Assembly (NCBI GenBank): GCA_030832825.1
Contig: JAURIJ010000006.1
Coordinates: 57,993 to 121,992, forward strand
Source: Gammaproteobacteria bacterium
GTDB lineage: Bacteria; Pseudomonadota; Gammaproteobacteria; Pseudomonadales; Pseudohongiellaceae
DNA length: 64,000 nucleotides
Reading direction: 5' to 3'
Each line of letters begins with the position of its first letter. The stretch's first letter is position 1. Below are positions 58,443-58,949 of this stretch, piece after piece. Position numbers and translations under genes: made by a program. The notes under the pieces are model-generated. The model saw only the letters and a program-made list of their open reading frames with translations. It did no database searches and had not been told where the DNA came from.

Positions 58443-58469
58443 TCCTGTGGGAGCGGGCTTGCCCGCGAA
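58443..58469. repeat. REP-like palindromic unit
   Basis: TCCTGTGGGAGCGGGCTTGCCCGCGAA with internal GCGGGC-TT-GCCCGC; resembles Pseudomonas-type REP sequences. Confidence 0.6.
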
Positions 58470-58486
58470 CCGAGCACTGAAGCTGG

Positions 58487-58648
58487 CCCTGCGGCCTGGG
58501 AGCGAGTTTGCAGACACGCTGCAAGTACGTCCCTGTAAGCTCGGCGCCCGCCATCCGACCGCCATGGATGGCGGGAGTGCCGGAAATGCAGGAGCATTTT
58601 TCGGCCCTGGCGGGCGACGGTCTGCAAACTCGCTCCCAGGCCACAGGG
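58487..58648. repeat. Structured palindromic element E1 (outer 29-nt arms, 28/29 paired, two internal hairpins)
   Basis: Arms 58487-58515 and 58620-58648 (23-nt perfect block GGCCTGGGAGCGAGTTTGCAGAC); inner CCCGCCATCC/GGATGGCGGG (58547-58575) and GCCGGAAATGC/GCATTTTTCGGC (58579-58605). Confidence 0.85.
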
Positions 58649-58806
58649 CTCAAGTCCAGTGGCATCGACCAGACTCGTCTCGGCAACTTCTTACTTGTCG
58701 TTATGTCTTGTGCGGACGTTACAGCGGCACCGGATGTCGTGGTGGCACCGGTTTTCCCTTGGTTATCACCCAAGAGGAGTTGTAGAGATCGCTGGCAGTG
58801 GACAAA

Positions 58807-58921
58807 GGGGCTGTCCTCGGCCTGCTCGTCGGCGGACCGTTGGCCGCCCGGACGGCGGCCAGCGAGCCCCCAGGGATGGGTTCACGGCGTGTCCGCAGAC
58901 GAGCAGGCCGAGGGCAGCCCC
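58807..58921. repeat. Structured palindromic element E2 (outer 31-nt arms, 29/31 paired, inner hairpin)
   Basis: Arms 58807-58837 and 58891-58921; inner GTTGGCCGCC/CGGAC/GGCGGCCAGC (58839-58863). Confidence 0.85.
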
Positions 58922-58949
58922 GAATTCGGAGTGCAAAAACCGGCAACCC

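Follow-up and report, generated by a model that had tools for sequence, protein, structure and literature searches.

A YPAL-type repeat family of Gammaproteobacteria with a selected fold and paired candidate CsrA sites

Two palindromes, E1 and E2, in a 64,000-nucleotide stretch of gammaproteobacterial DNA (the window) are very probably copies of a short, non-coding YPAL-type repeat, which occurs across Gammaproteobacteria and has the anatomy described below. We favour the reading of the family as a YPAL-type mobile repeat that acts as RNA and carries a paired, predicted CsrA site, and put the probability of this whole chain at roughly 0.4.

Anatomy of E1, E2 and their family

An earlier note on this DNA, made from the letters alone, had described E1 and E2 as near-perfect inverted repeats. 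So they are (arms 29/30 and 29/31; Table 1), and both fold far beyond chance, with z = -10.4 for E1 (minus strand) and z = -10.5 for E2 (plus strand); none of 200 shuffles folds as well. The reverse complement of 58506-58542 aligns without gaps to 58864-58900 at 25/37 positions, as the note had claimed. This 37-nt match is real, but the full shared unit is larger and consists of a ~54-nt core, the arms and a weaker outer box. Nor do E1 and E2 have quite the same build: both are family members, but the core of E1 is 104 nt long owing to a 49-nt segment that interrupts the loop of its first hairpin (HP1). On the plus strand, this segment forms two hairpins with the loops ATGGAT and AGGA. It recurs in two more copies of this genome, in the HP1 loop at C44:54971 and in the loop of the second hairpin (HP2) at C39:33798, and long-core-like sequence is common in the genus. 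As a twin-hairpin unit with GGA loops, the segment is nested in hairpin loops of larger copies (L004, L021), and segments resembling it occur free in other genomes (e.g. L202, L223). The hairpin that adjoins E1 is one that we take to be a Pseudomonas-type REP; inverted REPs bracket several family copies (L011, L015, L048).

Table 1 Coordinates of E1, E2 and adjoining features in the window
Feature	Position	Strand	Evidence or detail
E1, long-core family copy (arms and core)	58486..58649	sense = minus	model match 58504-58631, 73.7 bits, E 2.8e-12; arms 29/30
E1 5' arm (sense)	58620..58649	(-)	inverted repeat
E1 3' arm (sense)	58486..58515	(-)	inverted repeat
E1 core, 104 nt: HP1 with insert, GAGC linker 58539-58542, HP2	58516..58619	(-)	
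E1 49-nt segment in HP1 loop	58557..58605	(-)	
E1 HP2, TAC-AGGGAC-GTA, CsrA-type hexaloop	58526..58537	(-)	sequence
E2, standard family copy	58807..58921	sense = plus	model match 58826-58902, 96 bits, E 9e-17; arms 29/31
E2 arms	58807-58837 / 58891-58921		29/31 complementary
E2 core, 53 nt, flanked by GAC and GTC	58838..58890	(+)	
E2 HP1, TGGCCGCC-CGGAC-GGCGGCCA	58841..58861	(+)	
E2 HP2, CCC-AGGGAT-GGG, CsrA-type hexaloop	58869..58880	(+)	
E2 outer box, 5' side, TGGCAGTGGACAAAG; family form TGGCACTGAA	58793..58807	(+)	flank comparison
E2 outer box, 3' side, CGAATTCGGAGTGC	58921..58934	(+)	flank comparison
Spacer of the head-to-head pair E1/E2	58650..58806	(.)	
REP hairpin CTGTGGGAGCGGGCTTGCCCGCGAACC, adjoins E1 directly	58445..58471	(+)	sequence

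Read along the core strand, a copy consists of the outer box TGGCACTGAA, a ~31-nt 5' arm ending in GAC, CGT, HP1, CGAGC, HP2, TTCACGGCGT, GTC, the complementary 3' arm and TTCGRAGTGC. The ~31-bp arms, which are unique to most copies, close the ~54-nt core with its two hairpins. Watson-Crick pairing of the arms is ~0.9 at most positions up to 29 and at background (0.3) beyond position 31. Arm length is fixed (~31) and the arms are alike in their G-rich composition, but their sequences are unrelated between most copies. The earlier note is right that the arms differ, although recent copies are still alike in arm sequence.

The stems of HP1 and HP2 vary with compensation (for example, C-G to U-A and C-G to A-U in HP2). 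Their loops are conserved: among copies recognised without use of the loops, GGA is present in the HP1 loop of 124/129 and in the HP2 loop of 124/129. A class-wide pattern without HP1 gives GGA in 108 of 112 HP1 loops, and a genus scan with both loops left free in the pattern gives the same picture. The invariant columns of HP2 are C, A, G, G, A and G at positions 1, 2, 4, 5, 6 and 8, that is, CANGGANG.

Copy number and distribution

A degenerate core pattern (at most one mismatch) matches the genome 35 times, compared with 10 times for the reversed pattern. We built a covariance model, R1, from an alignment of 23 standard copies, all from this genome. R1 finds 30 copies in the 2.7-Mb genome and 18-47 in every one of the 13 congeners; elsewhere in the family and order the counts are 0-66, with a patchy distribution in the order. 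The dispersed intergenic family that the earlier note had suspected is therefore real, with at least 30 copies in this genome (30 full model matches) and others in the congeners. Copies are intergenic and multiple, and their presence differs between close species.

In a phylum-wide sample, 20 of 299 genomes carry the family, and all 20 belong to one class, Gammaproteobacteria. Among the matches listed in a pattern scan of named genomes are Xanthomonas, Stenotrophomonas, Arenimonas, Marinobacter, Microbulbifer, Alteromonas, Rheinheimera, Methylotuvimicrobium, Shewanella, Pantoea, Sodalis, Yersinia and others; wherever a listed record gives a genus, order or class, it is gammaproteobacterial, and a few give the phylum only. 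At one locus (L340; G206:C1:94432-95644), six copies stand in tandem, all oriented alike and repeating every 227 bp; their hairpins are intact, and differences between units are compensated.

Relation to YPAL/RU-2 and other repeats

The core of YPAL/RU-2 reads GTC, a hairpin with an AAGGAT loop, GCTCGAGC, the hairpin TAC-ATGGAT-GTA and TTTACGGCGTC, and is flanked by arms (PMC2759123). This core sequence is common to the family described here, and YPAL/RU-2 is likewise intergenic and mobile, with a size of 168 nt against an estimated 145-165 nt here (De Gregorio 2006; Delihas 2007, PMC2759123). In accordance, R1, although this genome was its only source, recovers Yersinia copies with E values from 1.6e-7 to 7.9e-9, and down to 4.3e-10 when Sodalis is included. 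The two differ in their arms: YPAL has a common arm sequence within its ~168-nt unit, whereas the arms here are near perfect but mostly unrelated between copies. Many head-to-head pairs, the long-core form and the distribution across Gammaproteobacteria also set the present family apart. Because a common arm sequence is absent here, we file the family as YPAL-type rather than as YPAL. Our best reading is a YPAL-type repeat whose range extends over Gammaproteobacteria, YPAL so far being known only from Yersinia and close relatives.

The question whether the repeat is already catalogued has a divided answer. It has the core of Yersinia YPAL/RU-2, and Rfam family RF02770 (Ysr224, Yersinia sRNA 224) covers the YPAL core, matches Yersinia and Sodalis copies above its cut-off and is annotated on the strand opposite to the core strand used here. 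However, an Rfam scan of the window gives only a sub-threshold Ysr224 match (24.8 bits; cut-off, 70), and a literature search with core strings returned the YPAL/RU-2 paper as the sole related record and no description from outside enterobacteria. The portions of the YPAL literature available to us contain no remark on paired GGA loops. REP, BIME and REPIN elements with their RAYTs are similarly intergenic, high in copy number and arranged in inverted pairs, and Pseudomonas-type REPs adjoin several copies, but they differ in sequence, size and anatomy.

Evidence for strand-specific selection on the fold

The first 23 copies contain 124 two-sided covarying cells, compared with 40 in shuffles. 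In 32 independent pairs of close copies with 133 changed stem sites, 62 changes are compensatory, 40 proceed via G.U and 26 are one-sided mismatches. Covariation among copies and compensation between related copies thus bear out the structural constraint that had been proposed from E1 and E2 alone.

Paired arms could also arise as a mere by-product of DNA repair, with template switching perfecting imperfect palindromes and no selection on the fold. The dominance of two-sided changes would suit this explanation, as would the arms of E2 and C27:35459, which are alike in their inner ~18 bp on both sides and then diverge on both sides together, and the first 23 copies, which are nearly free of G.U pairs. 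The last impression was reversed by a larger sample with longer arms. Repair is strand-blind and predicts as many G.U as A.C mismatches, yet the arms of 243 copies (partly non-independent, so that the asymmetry is given without a p-value) contain 227 G.U and 33 A.C, 133 G.A and 53 U.C, and 51 G.G and 8 C.C. Repair would also leave the GGA loops unconserved. We therefore reject a repair-only origin of the paired arms, which is highly improbable.

The asymmetry holds in the most mismatched copies (61 vs 10) and is unaffected by the direction of the neighbouring gene (38:3 sense, 39:5 antisense). Strand-blind mutation predicts equal counts within each mismatch couple; the unequal counts point to selection on the core strand in its folded, single-stranded form. 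Selection of this kind, whether on RNA or on DNA, is probable.

Genomic placement and movement

Sites beyond the 3' ends of genes are preferred, with 37 convergent and 10 divergent contexts according to heuristic gene calls based on amino-acid composition. This preference is what one would expect of a REP/ERIC-like hairpin at mRNA 3' ends that serves as a barrier to exonucleases or as a substrate of RNase III and whose loops are incidental. The fold is very stable, and YPAL is reportedly transcribed with upstream genes, possibly affecting transcript stability (De Gregorio 2006, cited after PMC2229807). We nevertheless consider such a role unlikely, as it leaves unexplained both the conservation of the loops (96%) and a strand asymmetry that is independent of neighbouring gene direction.

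Neighbouring copies are arranged head to head in 47 of 57 cases, E1/E2 being one of them. Single copies between genes of the same direction show no transcription bias (28 sense, 30 antisense). Movement of the IS200/IS605 type was examined through replication-strand bias in two genomes, and no clear bias was seen (13 lagging and 6 leading in G029, 24 and 25 in G196; 37 lagging and 31 leading in sum).

The pair E1/E2 between the M16 and EamA genes is absent in 13/13 congeners, as far as their contigs cover the locus; for G005 the comparison allowed no judgement. In G007 and G002 (flanks ~80-82% identical) the locus holds just a short spacer; in G004 and G010 it is occupied by another, different long palindrome. 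The latter (L094, L096) has ~25-bp arms and the core GCAAAAAG..CTTTTTGC and CCGCGGAGCGG; an element resembling it adjoins the family copy L025.

The copy C48:110698 has an empty counterpart, without trace of arms, in the close relative G005, and a different copy pair occupies the same point in G007. The empty site indicates that the element brings its arms along or that they are formed together with it, the alternative being that G005 lost its copy. YPAL is characterised by target-site duplications of 3-26 bp and targets at dyad symmetry; at the one empty site examined (C48:110698 in G005), no duplication is clear and no dyad is visible. The element might instead insert into pre-existing palindromes, such as terminators or REP pairs, which then become its arms. 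REP hairpins do flank several copies, the 49-nt segment does sit in hairpin loops, and YPAL targets are reported to span or adjoin dyad symmetry (PMC2229807). But the fixed arm length and common G-rich composition speak against acquired arms, and no such palindrome is seen at the empty site in G005, so that this origin is very unlikely.

A RAYT/Y1 transposase, which the earlier note had named as a possible mover, finds no support here. Y1-type proteins are expected to carry a His-x-His motif; the sole Y1-type protein of this genome (C22:16583) is degenerate at this position (LKDRYHLL), and its contig contains no family copy. No family copy found in this genome has an intact RAYT beside it. At L032:1432-2406, the single Y1-type transposase-like protein (324 aa, His-x-His motif degenerate) is encoded upstream of apparent ribosomal protein genes.

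The paired loops as a candidate CsrA site

The published CsrA/RsmE consensus is A/UCANGGANGU/A (PMC6849547, PMC6692469). The HP2 consensus, C-A-N-G-G-A-N-G, equals it, including the two free positions. As in RNAs bound by CsrA/Rsm proteins, the motif (A/UCANGGANGU/A) is presented in hairpin loops, here as the core CANGGANG and the GGA loops. The gene csrA is present in this genome and in 25/25 carriers tested, which says little, since csrA is nearly universal in Gammaproteobacteria. One member of the order that carries the element (G158) has nine csrA-like genes.

If the folded strand is RNA, the pair of hairpin loops, which are of CsrA/Rsm consensus and separated by less than 30 nt, would form a landing pad for one CsrA dimer; from the known biology of CsrA, two sites at this distance in one rigid junction should suit a single dimer. 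A transcribed copy would then either titrate CsrA or place it on the RNA that contains the copy, and the long stem may hold both sites in geometry and protect the RNA. In CsrB and RsmX/Y/Z, too, A-N-GGA motifs recur in single-stranded regions of a folded RNA (PMC5864184), but these are single regulated sRNA genes, whereas the family here is dispersed and offers two sites in each copy. It also shows no promoter signal upstream of its sense strand, the mirrored flank scoring slightly higher.

Several observations weigh against this role. The absence of a sense bias in gene context argues against a simple mRNA model and, together with the equal asymmetry in both contexts, makes read-through mRNA not obviously the selected molecule. 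The catalogued Yersinia transcript Ysr224 lies on the opposite strand, which counts against a sense RNA bound by CsrA. So do the missing promoter signal and, for E1, the 49-nt segment that breaks up its HP1 loop.

Chief among the rivals is a mobile element that is purely selfish: its folded strand, as DNA (or RNA), would be an intermediate in transposition, the GGA loops and conserved junction would be recognised by the mobilising protein, and the host would gain nothing. Orientation independent of transcription and replication, as if the element set the selected strand, is in line with this, and so are the varying presence (E1/E2 in the 13 congeners, C48:110698 in G005) and the rule of head-to-head pairs. 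Even the strand asymmetry would fit a DNA hairpin, as A.C, C.T and C.C are less well tolerated in DNA hairpins than G.T, G.A and G.G. On the other hand, neutral decay after insertion should be symmetric, whereas the asymmetry persists in the most mismatched copies; this genome has yielded no mover, and lagging strands are not favoured in the two genomes compared. Nor does a selfish origin account for a loop consensus that equals the CsrA site down to its two free positions. We regard it as possible but doubtful.

The loops make CsrA a natural partner of the family, although, judged from loop sequence, the CsrA step itself is tentative. Still more speculative is the wider proposal that the family provides mobile CsrA landing pads, dispersed in genomes across the class, each copy being a transposable RNA element with a two-site CsrA clamp; the copy number of a selfish repeat may then set or rewire the capacity of a global regulator. 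If CsrA does bind, dispersed repeats would join a central regulatory network. Such repeats are usually seen as genomic litter; here, the conserved loops coincide with a known protein-binding site and the stems co-vary strand-specifically across a class. With CsrA as a partner, the function of YPAL and REP-like repeats, an old question, would become testable. Even without CsrA binding, the family would provide a clean test of whether selection on a folded strand or DNA repair underlies covariation in bacterial palindromes.
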